IMG/VR virus record: IMGVR_UViG_3300044981_000387
Span: 1-64,000 of that record
Strand: one strand, 5' to 3'
DNA length: 64,000 nt
Source of the DNA: a virus
The position numbers were made by a program, and so were the translations under genes. Position 1 is the stretch's first letter; every line of letters begins with the position of its first letter. This document shows positions 28,596 to 63,078 of this stretch, piece by piece. The notes beneath the pieces are model-generated. The model was given only the letters and a program-made list of their open reading frames with translations, was not told where the DNA came from and made no database searches.

Positions 28596-29849
28596 TTATT
28601 CTCCTATTATTTTAACCGATTTAACTATGAAATCCATGGTATGTTCATCTCTAATGCGAGAGAACAAAATCTGCAAATATCCTGTTCTATTCATTTCTTG
28701 AATAACTTCATCCAATGATTTTTGTATTTTAGTTTGAGCTAGGTTCTTTTTAATAATCTCAAATACTTCTTGATCACTTAGCTGTGAATCAACTTCTTTT
28801 TCTCTAATGGCATCTAAAATCAAAGATAACTTAACATTTTTAGTAGCCATCTCCATAAACTTCTCTTTATCTGCATCAGCAATGGTGGTCCAATCTAACT
28901 GCGATTGATGGGCCAAATATCTAGCTTCAGACAACGACATCCAGTTGGGCACATTGATGGTATTATCAGCCACCAAGCGCTTAGCTACTGCATCTTGAAT
29001 GGCCATCTTGGCAGCACCTGCTACACGAGCGGTAGCCGCTAATTGTACTTGCTCACGCAATTCCACAAAATCTTTTTTTCCCATTTTAGTGGCCAATTCG
29101 TCATTAAGCGGACAAGGAGTATTTTTAGCTCCCGTTATTAAAATCACCTTGAAATGCACCGTTTTGCCAGCAATAGATGGTAAACTACCCTCTGGAACAT
29201 GAATGTCAAACTCACGAGCTTCTCCACTTAACATGCCTAACAAATTAGGATCAAAATCAGGAATCTGATTGCTGCCAATAGTGACCATTTCACCAGAGGC
29301 AGATAGATTATCTACCTTGACGCCATCAATGGAACCTTCATAATCAATAATGATATTATCACCATTTTGGACTACATCAGTATCACTATAAGGAGCCGCA
29401 TCACCTAAACGCACGCGCAATTCTTGCATCATTTGTTCGGCGACTTCATCTACCTTCGGCGTATTATGAGGTTTAACCACTTCCATATTTTGGAAAGGGG
29501 TCAACTCAAACTCTGGCTTAGTATACATCTCAAACTCACAGGTAAATTTACCGCCATCTAACAACAGAGAGTTAAACTTGGGAGCACCATGTGGGCGAAG
29601 TTTTTTCTCGAACAAAGTATTGTGAAAAGCATCTTCTGCCAAAGCTCTCTTCAAGGATTCTTCGATTTGTTGACGATAGTGCATTTTGATAGCATCCATC
29701 GGAATCGGCTTTCCAGGTCTAAACCCAGGGACCGGGGCTTTCTTAAACTGATTTTGCACCTCAGCTCTTTTGTCCATTATTTCTAAAGCATTAGCTTCAT
29801 AATGGACATTTAATTTGCATGATTCAATTTCATTAACTTCGATTTGCAT
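28596..29849 (-). CDS. tig: trigger factor chaperone
   Basis: 417 aa, near full length. The N-terminal ribosome-binding domain keeps the signature VPGFRPGKPIPMDAIKMHYR. The middle PPIase (FKBP-like) domain spans about 150-235 with VQNGDNIIIDYEGSIDGVKV then FDPNLLGMLSGEAREFDIHV. The C-terminal part is the long helical substrate cradle. Trigger factor binds uL23 at the ribosomal exit and shelters nascent chains. A complete copy in a phage would act on host ribosomes. It is followed by two small genes and an FtsH-type peptidase. Confidence 0.88.
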   Translation of the reverse strand: MQIEVNEIESCKLNVHYEANALEIMDKRAEVQNQFKKAPVPGFRPGKPIPMDAIKMHYRQQIEESLKRALAEDAFHNTLFEKKLRPHGAPKFNSLLLDGGKFTCEFEMYTKPEFELTPFQNMEVVKPHNTPKVDEVAEQMMQELRVRLGDAAPYSDTDVVQNGDNIIIDYEGSIDGVKVDNLSASGEMVTIGSNQIPDFDPNLLGMLSGEAREFDIHVPEGSLPSIAGKTVHFKVILITGAKNTPCPLNDELATKMGKKDFVELREQVQLAATARVAGAAKMAIQDAVAKRLVADNTINVPNWMSLSEARYLAHQSQLDWTTIADADKEKFMEMATKNVKLSLILDAIREKEVDSQLSDQEVFEIIKKNLAQTKIQKSLDEVIQEMNRTGYLQILFSRIRDEHTMDFIVKSVKIIGE

Positions 29850-48101: not shown

Positions 48102-49443
48102 TATGATCCTTTTTTAATAAAAAATGTGCGCGTTCCACAATTTTCTTACGAACCCTGTTAACATAAACCATACCACCCATTTGATAATGCGGCGGAATGC
48201 GTAAATGAGTAATAGAAACCGGAGTTCCAGGCCTAATATCATTAAACTTAATGCGAGAAAAACTATACTCTTTTACCAAATGCAATAAGGGCGCTTTAGT
48301 TTGAGTATGCAAAACATTCAATAATTTTCCAATATAATACGGCTGAGTATAAGAAGCCTTCCTCCCTCCAATATAAAACTCGGTAGTTCCATTTTTAATA
48401 TCCAACCTGTCAGTTATTATACTATCAAAATGACTAATCCCATCAAAAATGCATAAATGCTCACTTAATAAATTATCCACACGATATCTTTTAGCACCCT
48501 TCTTAATAAAGAAGGGGAGTGAACTGTCTAGCAACCTAATATACTCTTGAAATACTTTATGTTGAAATCCGCCAGAACGTGTGCCCTCTAACAAATAACC
48601 TATCATTTCTTCTGGTTGCTGTTGTAAAAGAATGCCAAAAGCTTCATATACTAATTGTTTATGCTTGATAGTAAAATCCGAACTACTATAAGAAACATGG
48701 CTAATTTGACTGCTAATTATTTCTTTTATTAGGTTAATCTTAACCTGTAATTCTTCTTTAATTTCTAAACGAGTTTGAGCATCTATTTCTTTAGAAATAA
48801 TGCTATCCTTGAAAAACCTATCGCCATCATTAGTAATATCCAATACCAATTTTTCTGGATTAGTCTGAGAGGTAGTGTGATGCATACCCGATAAATCCTT
48901 ATACTCCCCTACAAAGGAACAATCAAAATAGGGGCAAGCTACTATCGAAGTGTTTTCTAAAGGATGAGGTATAAAACGATGGCAATTAGCACAGCGATAA
49001 CCGCGCTTGTTATGCACCGCAAAAGTTTTGTAGAAAACCACTTGTTTAGGATCGGTAGTTTGCCTTAGTTGATAATGGCACTCTTCGCACTGAAAGGTTT
49101 TATCAAACACCACCAAAGTAGCCATACCTAGAAATAAACAGCCAGGACAAATATGCTCTGATTTCTTTTTGTGGGGCGAGGCGGCTAATTTGCGACAAAA
49201 AGCGTTAGCAATGTAAAATAGATAGACAGACAACTCTTCTAAAGGAGACCCTTTATTAATAAAGGTAACGCAACCAGTTCTCAATTCATCTTTCAATAAT
49301 TCTAAGAGAGCATACAAAGATAATTGATTATCGGTCTGAAAATACATATGATGTATGTTTGCAATACCAGAACAATGCTCTTGTAAAAACCTCTCCACCA
49401 TCATATCTGCGTCGATAAGGTTGAGGGTGCGTGCCGCTTGCAT
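48094..49443 (-). CDS. unknown Cys-rich 449-aa protein
   Basis: The N-terminal 90 residues are helical. Residues about 95-185 carry two zinc ribbons (CPGC/CEEC and CANC/CPYFDC). The rest is mixed, with a C-terminal segment ITHLRIPPHYQMGGMVYVNR then VRKKIVERA. It starts at the stop codon of the FtsK-like gene, so the two are coupled. It could be a DNA-handling partner; the family is not recognised. Confidence 0.55.
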   Translation of the reverse strand: MQAARTLNLIDADMMVERFLQEHCSGIANIHHMYFQTDNQLSLYALLELLKDELRTGCVTFINKGSPLEELSVYLFYIANAFCRKLAASPHKKKSEHICPGCLFLGMATLVVFDKTFQCEECHYQLRQTTDPKQVVFYKTFAVHNKRGYRCANCHRFIPHPLENTSIVACPYFDCSFVGEYKDLSGMHHTTSQTNPEKLVLDITNDGDRFFKDSIISKEIDAQTRLEIKEELQVKINLIKEIISSQISHVSYSSSDFTIKHKQLVYEAFGILLQQQPEEMIGYLLEGTRSGGFQHKVFQEYIRLLDSSLPFFIKKGAKRYRVDNLLSEHLCIFDGISHFDSIITDRLDIKNGTTEFYIGGRKASYTQPYYIGKLLNVLHTQTKAPLLHLVKEYSFSRIKFNDIRPGTPVSITHLRIPPHYQMGGMVYVNRVRKKIVERAHFLLKKDHNE

Positions 49444-50432
49444 TAGACTCCAAAATTATGACAAACTTCCGATGCTGTAATATATGCCACTTGAAATCGC
49501 TCTAGAAAACGAAAATTATCTCTAACTAAAGCATCGCCTTTACCTAATAGATTTTCGGCGCCCGTCACATCTAAAATGACCTTACTGTCTACATGGCTGG
49601 CCACACGACAAGCAATACGAGCCGGAAAATTGGCTTTAATGGCACCATTGATAATATTAACGGAAGGTCGTTGGGTGCCTAACACTAAACATATGTGAGC
49701 GGCACGGGATTTTTGTGCTAAACGACATAGTTTGTTAAAAAACTGATCTTCCTTATCTTGCATAATCAAATCAGCAAACTCATCTATAATCATCACTACA
49801 TAAGGAAGCTCTCCTGGAAGAAGACCCTCCCGCATTAAAGAATATCTTTGTTCCATCAATTCCAATAATGAATCCAATAATATAATTGTTTCATCATAAG
49901 TGTAGAAAACCTTGCTATTATGTAAACGATCTTCATAAGGACCAAACTCAATTCTCTTAGGGTCCACTAAACACACCACACAATCACTATAATTATATAG
50001 ATTAGCTATCAAATTATGCAATAAGGTGCTCTTACCAGAGCCAGTGGTGCCAGCGACAATCATATGAGGATTCAACGACAAGTCCATCCACAATCTTTTG
50101 CCATCCACCGTTTGGCCCAATAAGCATGGAAGACCACCTTCAGGCACATCTTGGTTGGTGAAATAATCCATCAACATCAAAGACTTTTCACGAGGGGAAG
50201 CGAACTCTAAACGGACCACCCCTTGTTCGTGCAACACTTTAATACTGGGACGACATGGAGTCTTGAGCGCCAAAGAAATCTCATCACCATATCGATGGAT
50301 ATCTTTAACCTTAGCGTGCGGATCTAATTTGAGATCATAGAAGAAATAGTTGTCTACTATTTGACTATTAACGCAATTAGCTTGAATATTAAATGCATGA
50401 AGAATCTTGTTAAAATGCTGAATACTTTCCAT
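49443..50432 (-). CDS. FtsK/SpoIIIE-type DNA translocase ATPase
   Basis: 329 aa. MIVAGTTGSGKSTLLHNLIA is the FtsK Walker A, VCLVDPKRIEFGPYEDRLHN matches the FtsK LIDPKxxEF block, YVVMIIDEFADLIMQ is Walker B, and CLVLGTQRPSVNIINGAIKA is the canonical ATQRPS motif with Ala-to-Gly. The N-terminal membrane part and the gamma DNA-recognition domain are absent. It probably pumps or segregates phage DNA. It is followed by a Cys-rich protein whose start coincides with its stop. Confidence 0.85.
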   Translation of the reverse strand: MESIQHFNKILHAFNIQANCVNSQIVDNYFFYDLKLDPHAKVKDIHRYGDEISLALKTPCRPSIKVLHEQGVVRLEFASPREKSLMLMDYFTNQDVPEGGLPCLLGQTVDGKRLWMDLSLNPHMIVAGTTGSGKSTLLHNLIANLYNYSDCVVCLVDPKRIEFGPYEDRLHNSKVFYTYDETIILLDSLLELMEQRYSLMREGLLPGELPYVVMIIDEFADLIMQDKEDQFFNKLCRLAQKSRAAHICLVLGTQRPSVNIINGAIKANFPARIACRVASHVDSKVILDVTGAENLLGKGDALVRDNFRFLERFQVAYITASEVCHNFGV

Positions 50433-50481: not shown

Positions 50482-50889
50482 TTAAAATTTTATAAATAAA
50501 TGATATTTCTCGGCAACAATTTTGCGCAATTCTTCCGGGGTCGGTTTTACTAAGCCGACCAAATGTCCAATTTTAATACCACTTTTATCTACCGTGCCAT
50601 ATGGCAATTCTATAATTAGATCACTAAACTTGTTATCACCAATCATCTCCGTAGAGAGCGGCTGCCCTACATGCAATTGAGATACTTTACCTTGATAACA
50701 AAAAACAATATCTAATGGACTAATAGTTTGATGCATCCAGAACTTATTGATTCTTGGCTCCGTATAAATAAAAGACATAGTGGGCGGAGGCCAGGATTGA
50801 CCCATAAGACCTCGCTGCTGCTCTGCCTCTGAAATTGCTATCAAAGTATCAAATATATTTAATCCTATATATACTATACCTTGTTCCAT
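50482..50889 (-). CDS. DUF192 family protein
   Basis: 135 aa. The pattern ISEAEQQRGLMGQSW...MSFIYTEP, then NKFWMHQTISPLDIVFCYQG, matches DUF192 (short beta-barrel proteins of unknown activity, found in some phages). Its gene meets the 490-aa gene end to start. Function is unknown. Confidence 0.7.
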   Translation of the reverse strand: MEQGIVYIGLNIFDTLIAISEAEQQRGLMGQSWPPPTMSFIYTEPRINKFWMHQTISPLDIVFCYQGKVSQLHVGQPLSTEMIGDNKFSDLIIELPYGTVDKSGIKIGHLVGLVKPTPEELRKIVAEKYHLFIKF

Positions 50890-52361
50890 TAAAAGAATCC
50901 TTCTAATGTAGGTTGACCTTTCATTGGCTTTTCCATATTATGTAAAGATCGCGTCAAAGAGCGGATAGTATTCATTTGACCAGATACTTCCGAAATTTTG
51001 GAACCCAAATCTTCTATAGATAAACCCTTCTCTAACAAGTCCATCACCGCATTGATATTGGTTCTAGTCTTGGTGGCCAACTCAAAAAGTTGCAATCTCA
51101 AACCAGAACTTTTACCTGGTAGTAGTTGGTGTCGTTTCTTACCCAACCACTTTTGCAAAAAAGCCTGAGCTACCACCTCTAACTGGTCGGAGGCTGAATT
51201 AACTTGTGGCGAAACAGTAGGGGTAGGCTCAACCACAACTTCTTGTTTTTTTGTTGATGGCTGCTTTTTAATTTCTTTCTGTAGTAAAACTGGTCGTAAT
51301 GGAGTTTGCGCTTTTCCACCAGTTCGTTCTCCAGTATAAGATGAAAACTCAGCTATAGTTTCATACATTACATGACCATCTGGAACTTGAGCTAAAATCT
51401 TTTTTAATGCTTCCAAAGTTGAATTGGATTGAAAAACAACCTCTACATCCGGAATAGGAACTTTTGCACCTTCATTAGTGATAGTTTGTGGTTCTATTTT
51501 TAGATTTGATATCTGAACTCCCGAAATCTTTGCCATTTGCAAAAAGCGTGTCACATCAATTGGAGCTTCAGCTCTAAACTTATATTTAATTAAAGAATTA
51601 GGCAACTCTTGTTCTGCACCAGGCGCCAATTCATCTTTCATCTCCTCAGGACGTGGAGTTTGTCCCGGTATACTATTAACATACTGATTAAAATAACGAG
51701 AAACAGTGGACCACTCATTCCAAGCTTGCTGTTGATCTTTATAAGCAGATATTACGCTATCTTTGGAGGACTTGGAAATTTGCACCTGAAATCTACCTAA
51801 AGCTCGATAAGACTTAAGGGCAGCCTTCAATAAATCCATGCGCATCCTTCTTTTTTGTGCCCCTGCGCCCACTCCAACTCGTGGAGTTCGCATCTTAGTT
51901 AAGAGACGACTAAAAGGATTAGATCCCTCAGATACTAACTCATATTTATGTTCCCAAGCCGCGCCCAACTGTTTAGTCAACTCACTACCAGTAGGGGCTG
52001 GGGTAGCCGCTATAGGAGAAGCAACTTCAGGTCCAGTAGGACCATATTTTTCATCCAACTTGTTAAGTGTTTGAGTGGCTTGGTCGGTTCTTTTTTGACG
52101 ACGAGTTTGTGAATATTGCGCTTGTTGTTGAGATATAGCGGCGCCCTGTTGAGCTAAATCCTGAAAATGACTGGCTAATGAATTAACAATAGAGGCAGGA
52201 TCGGCTGGAATAGGTAGGGTAATTTTAGAGCGTTCCTTAAAATATTTACTTGGCCAACCATTCATTAGTTTCTTAAAATGGATCACATCATTCAGGAATG
52301 ACGAAACTTCCTTATTCCAGGCAGCCTTAGTCTGTCGGAGTTTTTCCTGCGCCGGGTCCAT
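50889..52361 (-). CDS. unknown 490-aa protein
   Basis: The start is uncertain: ATG 52361 (MDPAQEKLRQTKAAWNKEV) looks most natural, while ATG 52391 and GTG 52433 are also in frame. It has an N-terminal helical region, a Gln-rich stretch, a central domain (LGRFQVQISKSSKDSVISAY), a beta domain around VEVVFQSNSTLEALKKILAQ, and a C-terminal helical domain with QAFLQKWLGKKRHQLLPGKS. No family is recognised; a structural role is possible. Confidence 0.6.
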   Translation of the reverse strand: MDPAQEKLRQTKAAWNKEVSSFLNDVIHFKKLMNGWPSKYFKERSKITLPIPADPASIVNSLASHFQDLAQQGAAISQQQAQYSQTRRQKRTDQATQTLNKLDEKYGPTGPEVASPIAATPAPTGSELTKQLGAAWEHKYELVSEGSNPFSRLLTKMRTPRVGVGAGAQKRRMRMDLLKAALKSYRALGRFQVQISKSSKDSVISAYKDQQQAWNEWSTVSRYFNQYVNSIPGQTPRPEEMKDELAPGAEQELPNSLIKYKFRAEAPIDVTRFLQMAKISGVQISNLKIEPQTITNEGAKVPIPDVEVVFQSNSTLEALKKILAQVPDGHVMYETIAEFSSYTGERTGGKAQTPLRPVLLQKEIKKQPSTKKQEVVVEPTPTVSPQVNSASDQLEVVAQAFLQKWLGKKRHQLLPGKSSGLRLQLFELATKTRTNINAVMDLLEKGLSIEDLGSKISEVSGQMNTIRSLTRSLHNMEKPMKGQPTLEGFF

Positions 52362-52437
52362 AGATGTTTTTCTAGCCTCTTTAGAGGTCATGAAAAGATA
52401 TGGAATTATTGCTATTTTATAATAGCAGCACACTCAT

Positions 52438-53031
52438 TTAGATAATATGGTCAATTAGGCCATACTGATAGGCAGACTCAGCGTCCATCCATTTTTCAGT
52501 TTGACAATCTGCCTTAACCTTCTCAAATGTTTGATTAGTGTGTTTGGCCATCACTCTTAGCATAGCGTCATTTTCCGCATCAACGAACTCCAAATAGTTT
52601 TTACTATTAGTAAAATCAAATCCAGGAATGGGAAAAACAAATTGACTACCATGAATCATGACCTTAGAACTTCGCAAAGCGAAACGCATTCCCTTGGTAC
52701 CAGTAGCTAATACCCAAGCACCAGCCGAATAAGCTTTACCTAATAAAATTGTTTTAACAGGAGCATGGATCATTTGCATAACGTCATAGATATTGGCCAT
52801 ACCAGTAGCTGCACCACCATTAGTATGGATATATACATTGATTTCGGTATCAGGATCCTGATGATCGTAATACAACATAAGAGCAGACATTTCGGCTCCC
52901 ATTTTGTCGCTAACATCTTCTGAAAGGAAGATGGCTCGATCTTTGGTCATCTTAACATAACTTTCAGAATAACCTAATACTAAAGGAGCGCGTAATGGTT
53001 CATGCTCATGCTTGTTATAATTCTTATTCAT
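52438..53031 (-). CDS. clpP: ClpP serine protease, catalytically complete
   Basis: 197 aa. The ClpP fold is clear: INVYIHTNGGAATGMANIYD (oxyanion loop), LGKAYSAGAWVLATGTKGMR with catalytic Ser, SSKVMIHGSQ with catalytic His, and KVKADCQTEKWMDAESAYQY with Asp in the expected place. It cleaves proteins as a barrel fed by a ClpX/ClpA ATPase, which must come from the host because none is in the window. Its gene lies 2 bases after a second ClpP gene that lacks Ser and His. Confidence 0.88.
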   Translation of the reverse strand: MNKNYNKHEHEPLRAPLVLGYSESYVKMTKDRAIFLSEDVSDKMGAEMSALMLYYDHQDPDTEINVYIHTNGGAATGMANIYDVMQMIHAPVKTILLGKAYSAGAWVLATGTKGMRFALRSSKVMIHGSQFVFPIPGFDFTNSKNYLEFVDAENDAMLRVMAKHTNQTFEKVKADCQTEKWMDAESAYQYGLIDHII

Positions 53032-53033
53032 AA

Positions 53034-53621
53034 TTAGGCCTTATTGTAATTAACAATTCCATCAATAAATCCATACTTCATAGCTTGCTTTGCATTAAAA
53101 AAGACTCGACGATCGAAATCTTTTCTTACCTGGCTGATGGTCTTTCCAGACGTACCAGCCAAAATATCCATTAAACGATCGTTATCCATTTTATGTTGCT
53201 GCATTATAGCAGCAGCGCCTGGTAAATCGGTATGCATATGCAAACCTGGTAATAATTGGGTAGCTGCAATAATAGCATGCTTAGTAGCAAAACGCATCCC
53301 AGGCGCACCACCCGTCAATAAAATTAAGGCCTCATCCATAGCCGCACCAATACAAACCGTTTCAATGGGAGCCTGAATCATTGTCATGACATCGTAAATC
53401 ATAAAAGCATTACGAATATCACCACCATGAGAATTGATGAAAAGCGTAATTTTTTTATCAGGATCTTCACTATCCTTTAGGAGCAAAGTAGCTACCATAT
53501 CAGTGGCTAATTCGTCATGCAGCTCTTCACTCAAAAATAAAATACGGTCCTGTGCCAGCTTCTGATAAACATCCATTGCCACATCGCCATTTTCTGTTTG
53601 CTCTAAAACTAGTGTATTCAA
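53034..53621 (-). CDS. catalytically dead ClpP paralogue (ClpR-like)
   Basis: 195 aa with the ClpP scaffold: ITLFINSHGGDIRNAFMIYD, CIGAAMDEALILLTGGAPGM, and FNAKQAMKYGFIDGIV. At the catalytic Ser the sequence reads AAMDEAL (Asp), and at the catalytic His it reads IIAATQLLP (Thr). The Asp remains (KDFDRR). It should form rings with the active partner encoded 2 bases downstream, much as ClpR subunits do in cyanobacteria and plastids. The mixed-ring idea is inference. Confidence 0.82.
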   Translation of the reverse strand: MNTLVLEQTENGDVAMDVYQKLAQDRILFLSEELHDELATDMVATLLLKDSEDPDKKITLFINSHGGDIRNAFMIYDVMTMIQAPIETVCIGAAMDEALILLTGGAPGMRFATKHAIIAATQLLPGLHMHTDLPGAAAIMQQHKMDNDRLMDILAGTSGKTISQVRKDFDRRVFFNAKQAMKYGFIDGIVNYNKA

Positions 53622-53623
53622 GA

Positions 53624-53977
53624 TTATAACCTCTTTCGTTGTTTTTCTTCAGTTTCTCGGTCTTCTGCACAAGAGACACAGGTTTGGAAGTGTGGATTAA
53701 GAATCAGTCTTTTTTCTGGAATAGACTCCTCGCAATCTTGACATAAACCATAAGTTTGTTTATCAATGCGTTGAAGGGCATCGTCAATTTGCTTGAGCTT
53801 AAAAGTAGCACGAGAAGTGAGACGATTATTCATTTCCGCAATCATGGTGCCTTGGATTAAATCCGTCTCGTCTCCCTCTGTGTCTATATCTCGTTCCTGC
53901 TGAACCTGCGCCAAAATCTCTTTCTTTTGTGATAATAACAGCTCTTTCATTTTAGTTAAAAAACTTTTGTTTAACAT
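53624..53977 (-). CDS. DksA/TraR-type zinc-finger protein
   Basis: 117 aa. A coiled-coil N-terminus (LLLSQKKEILAQVQQERDID) is followed by CQDCEESIPEKRLILNPHFQ then TCVSCAE, the four-Cys finger of DksA/TraR. DksA family proteins enter the RNA polymerase secondary channel and change promoter choice. It could reprogram host transcription. It starts the dead-ClpP/ClpP run, with only 2 bases to the next gene. Confidence 0.82.
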   Translation of the reverse strand: MLNKSFLTKMKELLLSQKKEILAQVQQERDIDTEGDETDLIQGTMIAEMNNRLTSRATFKLKQIDDALQRIDKQTYGLCQDCEESIPEKRLILNPHFQTCVSCAEDRETEEKQRKRL

Positions 53978-54385: not shown

Positions 54386-55138
54386 TCAAGACGACAATTT
54401 TTCTAAAATTTTAGTTTGATGCCTAATTCTCATTGTCCCATCTAAAATATTCTGTTTAGCTGAATAGGGGCGTAAGTTCTCTAATGCCCAACATTTTTGG
54501 AAATTATCGTCATTCATAGAAGAATAAGGTAAATCAGATTGAGGAACTATATGATCAATATTCCACTTCCAAGTTAAAGGGTTATTATCGTCCCACGTCT
54601 TAGGATCATACTTTCCCTGATTATCCCAAGTCATCCATAGCTCGAATTGTGCTTCTAAATGTTCTTTTAATTCTTGAATTGAATATAATAAATGTTGAAG
54701 GCACGATCCCTTCTTCTTACTATTAGCTCTTTTAATTGCCGCTCTTATAGAGGCGGAAACAATAGTTCGCAACCTAAATGCTGGATCATTTTGAGCGCGC
54801 ACTTTAAGATATTCTTTATCATAAGTTTTATGATATTCTTTGTTATATTCTTTTTTAGCTATTTTGGCATCTTCATTTTCTTGAAGATAGAGTTTTTGAC
54901 ATTCTAAAAGGTGATCTTTATTTTCTTGATAATAATTTTTATGTTGAATATCTAATTGTTCTTTATTTTCTTGATAATATTTTTTACCATATTCTGATAT
55001 ATGTTCTTTATATTTTTGACGATTTTCTTTTTGACAAGACTTACACTTACCATTTTTTCTTACTAATTGTGATTTAACAAATTCTGATATTGACTTTTCT
55101 GTTTTACATTTTCTACAAATTTTAGTATTTGCGTTCAT
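54386..55138 (-). CDS. HNH endonuclease with Lys/Tyr-rich repeat arm
   Basis: 250 aa. The N-terminus has a CRKCKTEK...CKSCQKENR knuckle. Residues 45-105 are a repetitive YYQENKE.L/H.K.Y arm. The C-terminus holds the HNH core WKWNIDHIVPQSD, then CWALENLRPYSAKQN. It is a homing-type nuclease inserted between the 130-aa and HU-like genes. GGAGGCACG precedes the ATG and a TGATATATA element lies just upstream. Confidence 0.8.
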   Translation of the reverse strand: MNANTKICRKCKTEKSISEFVKSQLVRKNGKCKSCQKENRQKYKEHISEYGKKYYQENKEQLDIQHKNYYQENKDHLLECQKLYLQENEDAKIAKKEYNKEYHKTYDKEYLKVRAQNDPAFRLRTIVSASIRAAIKRANSKKKGSCLQHLLYSIQELKEHLEAQFELWMTWDNQGKYDPKTWDDNNPLTWKWNIDHIVPQSDLPYSSMNDDNFQKCWALENLRPYSAKQNILDGTMRIRHQTKILEKLSS

Positions 55139-55152
55139 CGTGCCTCCTATAC

Positions 55153-55485
55153 TTATATATCACTTGGAGGCAAAGTTTTGTCAAGATCCAAAAATGAAAC
55201 CAATTTTTTATGAATTGAAGGTGCTAATAAAAATCGCATTATGCGATGTCCTGGCGACAATACCATTTGTCGTAATCGAACATTATGATACCATCGTGGC
55301 TTGGTTGGTTGAAGGGTAATGTTTCCTAAATTAACTATCTTAATTGATTTCCCTTGACGCAAATCTTTCAATATTTCCTCAAACAAAATATTGATAACAG
55401 CCAATACATGATAACGGTGTAATAATCGTTTAATTTTACGATTAACATAGCGCCATAAATCTCGTTTACTAATGCTAGATGACAT
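55153..55485 (-). CDS. HU/IHF-like DNA-binding protein
   Basis: 110 aa. The HU pattern is visible: INILFEEILKDLRQGKSIKI, VNLGNITLQPTKPRW, a beta arm of about 20 residues, then RFLLAPSIHKKLVSFL. The N-terminal helix pair is longer than in HU and more basic. It would bend or coat phage DNA. A second distant relative is at 57141. Confidence 0.65.
   Translation of the reverse strand: MSSSISKRDLWRYVNRKIKRLLHRYHVLAVINILFEEILKDLRQGKSIKIVNLGNITLQPTKPRWYHNVRLRQMVLSPGHRIMRFLLAPSIHKKLVSFLDLDKTLPPSDI
55154..55162 (-). promoter_or_regulatory. TGATATATA motif before the HNH gene
   Basis: Minus-strand TGATATATAAGTATAGGAGG: the motif is followed by a strong ribosome binding site and the ATG at 55138. It overlaps the 3' end of the HU-like gene. 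Confidence 0.4.
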
Positions 55486-61903: not shown

Positions 61904-62116
61904 TCAGTTCAAGTTGGTAAATTGTTTAATCGGAGGGTTTTTGACTTCATCCAATGTGGGCAATTCTTCTTTATTTAATTCTGCCTCAAACTCTTGTCTT
62001 TGACGATCGGCTCTCTTCTCAAACCAATCTTCCGCAAAACGCCATACAACACCCAAAACTGCACCCGCCAATACTACCAAACCCATTAGTTCTACTAACC
62101 ACATGACTTGCCTCAA
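61904..62116 (-). CDS. small single-pass membrane protein
   Basis: 70 aa. The N-terminal TM is VELMGLVVLAGAVLGVVW, followed by a charged coiled coil (DWFEKRADRQRQEFEAELNK) and an acidic tail. It overlaps nadA by 4 bases. It could be an inner-membrane spanin-like or accessory protein; unproven. Confidence 0.55.
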   Translation of the reverse strand: MRQVMWLVELMGLVVLAGAVLGVVWRFAEDWFEKRADRQRQEFEAELNKEELPTLDEVKNPPIKQFTNLN

Positions 62117-63078
62117 CTTAATGCCATCATTCGATTGATGGACAACCTAGCACCATTCATCAATTCCTCTGACATTATTATCTGAGGATCCAAATCTCTT
62201 AAAGAGAGATATACCTTCTCCAAAGTATTCTTCTTCATGTAAGGGCACTCATTGCAAGCGCAGCTGGCTTCCGGAGGAGCTGGAATAAAAATTTTATCAG
62301 GGCAAGCTTTACGCATCTGATGTAGGATACCCGATTCTGTGGCCACAATAAACTCGGAAGCGGAACTGGATACCGCATATTTGAGTAGTCCAGTGGTGGA
62401 TGAAATATGATCTGCCATATTAAGAATGGCTTCCTCGCATTCCGGATGAGCAATAATGAGGGCTTGCGGATGTCGAGTTTTGAGAGCAATCAACTTTCTT
62501 TGACTGAAAGTCTCATGCACCACACAGGTGCCTTGCCACAAAACCATGGGAATGTCGGTCTTTTTGATAATATAGGCTCCCAGGTGCTTATCGGGAGCAA
62601 ACAGCAGTTGTGAGCCATTCTGGGCGGCATGTCTAACAATTTTTTCGGCATTGGAAGAGGTGCAAATATAATCGGATAAGGCCTTGACTTCCGCCGAACA
62701 GTTGATGTAGCTAATAACAATGGAATCGGGATATTGAGCTTTCCAATGGGCAAACTGATCGGCAGGACAACCGTCAGCTAAAGAACAGCCAGCCGTTAAG
62801 TCGGGAAGCACCACTATTTTATTGGGACTAAGAATCTTGGCGGTTTCAGCCATAAAATGGACACCGCAAAAACATATAGTGTCAGCGTTAGTAGCGGCAG
62901 CTTGTTGCGACAGTTGCAAAGAATCACCAATAAAGTCGGCTACATCTTGAATGTCGGAATCTTGATAATAATGGGCCAAGATAACGGCATTACGACTTTT
63001 CTTCAGCTTATCAATCTCTGCTTCCAAATCGAGAGAAGGATCGACATACGGCTGATTGAGAATCGGTAGATTATTCAT
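62113..63078 (-). CDS. nadA: quinolinate synthase NadA
   Basis: 321 aa, full length. Motifs: AVILAHYYQDSDIQDVADFI then GDSLQLSQ; TICFCGVHFMAETAKIL (first Fe-S Cys); PDLTAGCSLADGCPADQF; IINCSAEVKALSDYICTSSN-like substrate loop; HPECEEAI; and CACNECPYMKKNTLEKVYLSL. These supply the Cys for the 4Fe-4S cluster. It condenses iminoaspartate and DHAP to quinolinate, the second step of NAD synthesis. NadB and NadC are not in the window, so it relies on the host or on genes elsewhere. Confidence 0.93.
   Translation of the reverse strand: MNNLPILNQPYVDPSLDLEAEIDKLKKSRNAVILAHYYQDSDIQDVADFIGDSLQLSQQAAATNADTICFCGVHFMAETAKILSPNKIVVLPDLTAGCSLADGCPADQFAHWKAQYPDSIVISYINCSAEVKALSDYICTSSNAEKIVRHAAQNGSQLLFAPDKHLGAYIIKKTDIPMVLWQGTCVVHETFSQRKLIALKTRHPQALIIAHPECEEAILNMADHISSTTGLLKYAVSSSASEFIVATESGILHQMRKACPDKIFIPAPPEASCACNECPYMKKNTLEKVYLSLRDLDPQIIMSEELMNGARLSINRMMALS

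Follow-up and report, generated by a model that had tools for sequence, protein, structure and literature searches.

A conserved tandem of a triad-less and a predicted active ClpP homologue in a clade of huge phages

The DNA analysed here (the window, 64,000 nucleotides) comprises bases 1-64000 of a 120,727-bp IMG/VR virus record carrying a phage-type DNA polymerase, SbcCD, a UvsX-like recombinase and topoisomerase. Two genes on its minus strand, designated D and A, were found to encode proteins of the ClpP family, with A located 2 bp downstream of D; this is the tandem reported in the preliminary description of the locus, and the two are the only ClpP genes of the 120,727-bp record. IMG/VR was scanned using A, D and their alignments as queries, and the same tandem in the same order was observed in 39 further contigs of up to 480 kb. 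D lies directly upstream of A on one strand in all 40 records (window included), which collapse to 33 distinct pairs, the window again being counted. The pair and the genes around it are as follows:

55153..55485, minus strand: HU/IHF-like DNA-binding protein, in the block in 32 of the 33 distinct pairs
53624..53977, minus strand: DksA/TraR-type zinc-finger gene, the immediate upstream neighbour of D in all 33 distinct pairs
53622..53640, minus strand: Shine-Dalgarno-like sequence GAAAGAGG ahead of the TTG start of D, recognised by sequence inspection and kept in many relatives
53034..53621, minus strand: D, clpR-like gene for a ClpP homologue that appears catalytically dead (195 aa, TTG start)
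52438..53031, minus strand: A, clpP gene for a predicted active ClpP homologue (197 aa, ATG start)
50889..52433, minus strand: long protein of unknown function following A, conserved in the block, with translation possibly beginning inside the ORF
50482..50889, minus strand: DUF192 protein, conserved in the block
49443..50432, minus strand: FtsK/SpoIIIE-like ATPase, in the block in 32 of 33

Pfam CLP_protease (PF00574) matched the two ORFs far over the cut-off (E values of 1.6e-44 and 1.3e-45), and both D and A belong to the ClpP family (PF00574, MEROPS S14) by sequence as well as by fold. The start codon of D (window 53619-53621) was TTG in 28 of the 33 distinct pairs, ATG in 3 and GTG in 2, and that of A was mostly ATG; the TTG and ATG starts possibly represent a conserved setting of the D:A ratio. 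A scan for promoters and terminators gave signal near background.

Order and strand of the block (HU-like, DksA-like, D, A, unknown long protein, DUF192 and FtsK-like) were kept in nearly all 33, indicating that the pair belongs to the core genes of this phage clade and is no sporadic accessory. Such conserved synteny fits a core function better than it fits a sporadic counter-defence gene, the degradation of defence proteins being one use suggested earlier. The block is interrupted in the window, where the HU-like gene is separated from its next conserved neighbour by a gene at 54386-55138 (minus strand) that looks like a homing gene of the HNH/endonuclease-VII type, and no shared family was seen for it in the blocks of relatives. 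Elsewhere, at 62113-63078 (minus strand), the window encodes quinolinate synthase NadA (Pfam E value 2.8e-119), which points to NAD metabolism.

The catalytic positions were located using S97/H122/D171 of E. coli ClpP as the ruler (Ec numbering). They are, all on the minus strand:

Codon 53336-53334: Asp96 of D at Ec97, Ser lost
Codon 53261-53259: Thr121 of D at Ec122, His lost
Codon 53108-53106: Arg172 of D at Ec171, Asp lost
Codon 52728-52726: Ser102 of A
Codon 52653-52651: His127 of A
Codon 52497-52495: Glu179 of A, at the catalytic acid position

Alignment with E. coli ClpP confirmed that D is a ClpP scaffold with Asp for Ser and Thr for His, as described previously, and added the loss of the acid, which had passed unremarked. 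A had been credited with a Ser-His-Asp triad; Ser and His were found as claimed, but the Asp that had been pointed to sits at Ec167 and the catalytic acid is Glu179, so that A in the window is Ser-His-Glu. In the survey of phage clpP pairs that the preliminary description had called for, none of the three triad residues was retained by D in any of the 33 distinct pairs, though the replacements varied: Asp (n = 19), Asn (n = 7), Phe (n = 2), Lys (n = 2), Tyr, Gly and Arg (n = 1 each) at Ec97; Ser (n = 17), Thr (n = 6), Gly (n = 6), Asn (n = 3) and Asp (n = 1) at Ec122; and Arg (n = 16), Lys (n = 9), Gln (n = 3), Thr (n = 2), Leu (n = 2) and Ile (n = 1) at Ec171. This variety at Ec97 looks like released constraint on catalysis rather than a new active site. 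Ser and His were present in A in 33 of 33, with the acid being Asp in 24 and Glu in 9, the window among the latter. A displaced but intact triad in D, the outcome named beforehand as fatal to the claim, was ruled out, as 18 homologues had zero invariant Ser or His columns. Among about 100 other bacterial and phage ClpPs compared, Ser and His were kept in all. The pattern is not chance, because 33 of 33 distinct pairs repeat it and 0 of the about 100 other ClpPs are without Ser or His. At the level of sequence, these results show that D is unable to act as a Ser-His-Asp protease and that the triad retained by A is usable, A being predicted to be active.

D and A always co-occurred in relatives, which was the other point on which the earlier claim hung. 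Exactly two ClpP genes were present in 17 of the 18 large records of the clade; the 434,688-bp record G015 (behind L103) has a third, more distant ClpP-family gene at 330385-330786 (minus strand), away from the pair. Both genes are under purifying selection. For D, pN/pS was 0.10 (L005/L006) and about 0.19-0.25 (window versus nearest), values that are upper estimates since pS was near saturation. A sequencing artefact or a lone pseudogene was ruled out by the 33 distinct conserved pairs and the purifying selection.

A tree was constructed from which the three catalytic columns were removed and long rows left out, with 30 bacterial and 12 other phage ClpPs included. D formed one clade (98) and A formed one clade (98), and the two together were split from the 30 bacterial and 12 phage ClpPs with SH-aLRT support of 96.7; the same branch had support of 88 in a first tree. 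Pairwise distances of D and A were correlated (r 0.83). These results show that D and A were inherited jointly and without change of order throughout a diverse huge-phage clade, and one duplication in the phage lineage followed by co-inheritance would be the simplest reading of the sequences. The tree took in sampled bacterial and phage ClpPs, and a shared origin with cyanobacterial ClpR is possible. A genome scan for cyanobacterial ClpR candidates using an approximate plastid ClpP1 query gave 80 loci, none of them cyanobacterial, and a plasmid search listed no such candidates. One scan of genome contigs with the D alignment revealed no bacterial homes of D. UniProt A0A6J5RS39, named ClpP, is 60% identical to D and likely is an already deposited member of the D group. 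In the part of 113 GenBank matches examined, similar pairs were not seen in phages: three huge phages had 2-3 ClpPs, with every copy intact and none adjacent.

Beyond the triad, D and A differed in the regions relevant to docking. In the axial loop (Ec1-20), the part of ClpP that contacts the unfoldase pore, mean column entropy was 1.22 bits for D, 1.42 for bacteria and 2.25 for A. D kept E8 (33/33), G13 (31/33) and D18 (32/33) in this loop and did not retain the bacterial R12/R15. For the pocket that receives the unfoldase IGF loop, with a residue list assumed for E. coli ClpP, the hydropathy was 2.63 for D, 2.12 for bacteria and 1.72 for A. The pocket of D deviates from the consensus of bacteria at two positions, Ec60 (Thr/Ser) and Ec114 (Thr in 33/33), and these changes, with the lost R12/R15, may give it an unusual choice of partner. 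The pocket of A is not destroyed, with Leu48, Tyr49, Tyr62, Met82 and others left, and A may still be able to bind an unfoldase. The beta9/handle region is better conserved in A (entropy 1.35 versus 1.77 for D), where it has a motif of its own, HG.Q..FP; the handle region of D is unlike that of bacterial ClpPs.

AlphaFold2 predicted an N-terminal hairpin in D (strands 4-9 and 12-17; mean pLDDT 86.9), a modest prediction with pLDDT of 58-84 over the first 30 residues, so that its weight comes mainly from sequence conservation. In the model of A (pLDDT 83.7), residues 1-15 were disordered and no axial hairpin was formed. Both models matched solved ClpP chains along almost the whole fold, D with a Z of 28.9 (rmsd 1.4, 187 aligned) and A with a Z of 28.3 (rmsd 2.2, 181 aligned). 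D begins at the N-terminus of mature E. coli ClpP and thus has no propeptide; A bears an extra unaligned N-terminus. Contacts between ClpP rings include salt bridges, and the acidic residue at Ec169 is kept in D and mostly missing in A. The losses are thus complementary: D keeps the hairpin and the hydrophobic pocket, and A keeps the degradation chamber and triad without the hairpin.

A motor for the pair was sought in the 18 large records. The ClpX zinc finger (0/18), ClpS (0/18) and ClpA/C were not found in any of them. The single PF10431 (ClpB_D2-small) match among them was in G013, a 472,749-bp record with a ClpB-like AAA+ protein (L191, 1468-3177, minus strand; open frame 748 aa). As an unfoldase of the phage's own, this AAA_2 protein was ruled out, being ClpB-like by inspection and having a D2 region without an IGF/IGL loop. 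A 368-aa AAA protein in G000 (L196), without ClpB_D2-small and MoxR-like in look, was also ruled out. All 18 large records are possibly incomplete and an unfoldase could therefore be missed, but 18 misses are unlikely all to be gaps; with no ClpX, ClpA/C or ClpS of the phages' own, the motor is most likely that of the host. Of the earlier suggestion that the pair redirects a host unfoldase, it is the reliance on this unfoldase that is supported, and indirectly; the results gave no sign of defence proteins being degraded or of phage proteins being spared.

A candidate functional associate is encoded further along the window:

28596..29849, minus strand: full-length trigger factor homologue (Trigger_N, FKBP_C and Trigger_C; GFRPGK motif kept)

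All 18 large records had the trigger factor, at a distance of about 16-28 kb from the ClpP pair; co-inheritance and the shared trigger factor come from one clade, making the 18/18 one observation rather than eighteen. In E. coli, trigger factor binds to ClpX and accelerates the breakdown of certain substrates, and the cluster tig-clpP-clpX is common in bacteria (PMC7804408). No description of a trigger factor in jumbo or huge phages was found in the literature searched. Among the top GenBank matches to D and A were short gut records named 'Bacteriophage sp.' (MT839581, MT839725, MT835986, MT838389 and similar) with a trigger factor gene beside clpP; since this is the ordinary bacterial order, they are probably bacterial fragments.

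We consider it somewhat probable that D and A are two halves of one asymmetric ClpP-type protease, with D docking a host unfoldase and A cutting. The two would assemble into one barrel, in the simplest case with one D7 ring on top of one A7 ring, though the rings might be mixed. On its face, D would receive IGF loops from the AAA+ unfoldase of the host, which would be ClpX in some hosts and ClpA/ClpC in others, and D would gate entry and allosterically order the active sites of A, which would perform all the cutting. The A end would be unable to dock productively, resulting in a one-sided machine. In Mycobacterium tuberculosis, ClpP2 docks the ATPases and ClpP1 supplies the essential cutting (PMC9067928), showing that such a division of roles can work. 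As the phage supplies the peptidase and not the motor, the fate of proteins unfolded by the host Clp machine might be changed during infection, a weaker step in which the phage trigger factor perhaps joins. A broader scenario, rather doubtful at present, is that this huge-phage clade provides a substitute for the peptidase half of the Clp machine of the host, in which a dead docking ring and an active cutting ring would clamp host ClpX or ClpA/C. The phage trigger factor would help to choose substrates, and the host motor would feed a protease that is under phage control and has gating and specificity of its own.

A docking face kept and catalysis lost is also the look expected of a dominant-negative ClpP. 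D alone might thus be a decoy or poison, with D rings, or D in host ClpP rings, occupying ClpX and blocking host degradation, and A doing a separate job. This is unlikely, as D was never without A immediately downstream in the 33 distinct pairs, the axial hairpin has been lost from A in the same lineage, as expected if A relies on D, and the handle region of D differs from that of bacterial ClpPs. It is similarly improbable that the pair is a prohead protease for head maturation, working without an unfoldase and with one of its subunits structural and non-catalytic; S14-type enzymes are head-maturation proteases in many phages. Most PHROG matches were indeed to head maturation protease families, yet these were modest (best E values 1.5e-18 for A and 3.2e-14 for D), and canonical ClpP is a far nearer match to both D and A (Pfam about 1e-45). 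In favour of this reading, the block consists of conserved core genes, but no head gene was recognised in the block flanking the pair, capsid and portal genes were not located, and weak terminase matches lay about 44-57 kb away in the ten records in which both were placed. A T4-type S77 prohead protease, whose absence would favour this reading, was not found in the 18 records in a search without a positive control, and a search for a T4-type portal, with no positive control registered, gave no match. The axial loop and docking pocket kept by D are relevant to AAA+ docking, not to prohead proteases.

Apicoplast ClpP and ClpR form homoheptameric rings and are hard to isolate together (PMC7966870), a precedent for D and A being separate homo-oligomers, in which case A would be a phage ClpP of the ordinary kind and D would moonlight as a scaffold or binding protein with an unrelated function. 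We regard this as very improbable in view of the adjacency and correlated evolution of D and A, the complementary loss of features, and the acid at Ec169 mostly missing from A, which argues against a canonical A-A interface if the ring-ring salt bridges of ClpP apply. Taken overall, the preliminary interpretation is partly supported, and the asymmetric protease of D and A is the reading carried forward below.

Dead subunits of the ClpR type occur in photosynthetic organisms and in apicoplasts, and dead/active ClpP pairs as such are already known from cells. D resembles a ClpR in being a ClpP homologue without the triad and in its genetic partnership with an active ClpP (40 records). The parallel with ClpP/ClpR drawn in the preliminary description therefore holds in form: active and dead members are adjacent and co-inherited, and the dead one is under purifying selection. 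No description of a dead phage ClpP, or of such a pair, was found in the literature searched; if the proposal is true, this would be the first two-subunit ClpP described from viruses, as far as that literature shows, and would point to a takeover of host proteolysis by huge phages. The function of ClpR-type dead subunits was still called poorly understood in 2022 (PMC9067928). D and A would represent docking and cutting features naturally separated in two small genes, which are easy to express, making the role of a dead ring directly testable.

Single ClpPs and ClpS have been reported in jumbo phages by Iyer et al., possibly aimed at host proteins (PMC7824862). The single ClpPs of Lak phages, Salmonella phage Munch and other jumbo phages are jumbo-phage-encoded, as here, but all of those compared keep the triad, and none of these lies beside a second, dead copy. 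The cyanobacterial ClpP3/ClpR and plastid ClpP/ClpR cores likewise combine an active ClpP with a triad-less homologue (PMC7966870); unlike these, D and A occur in phages without a ClpC of their own, and the likeness is one of form. In the apicoplast of Plasmodium, the inactive ClpR is without a prodomain and the active ClpP has one (PMC7966870), and the N-termini of D and A are similar in this respect; however, that apicoplast has its own ClpC and ClpS, and the N-terminal extension of A is known from sequence, with no sign of its removal. Nocardia asteroides, Streptomyces coelicolor and Leptospira interrogans have one ClpP allele without the triad residues (PMC9067928), and thus dead and active alleles in one genome, as with D and A, but these are cellular and are likened by description.

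The closest functional model of D and A may, by analogy, be the asymmetric ClpP1P2 of M. tuberculosis. A strain with 'forced asymmetry', which carried mutations in the ClpP1 patch as well as in the ClpP2 active site, showed growth like that of controls (PMC9067928). The division of labour, in which one subunit docks and the other cuts, would be shared with the roles proposed here for D and A. Triads are kept in both mycobacterial subunits, whereas the asymmetry of the phage pair has been fixed by the loss of all three residues from D.
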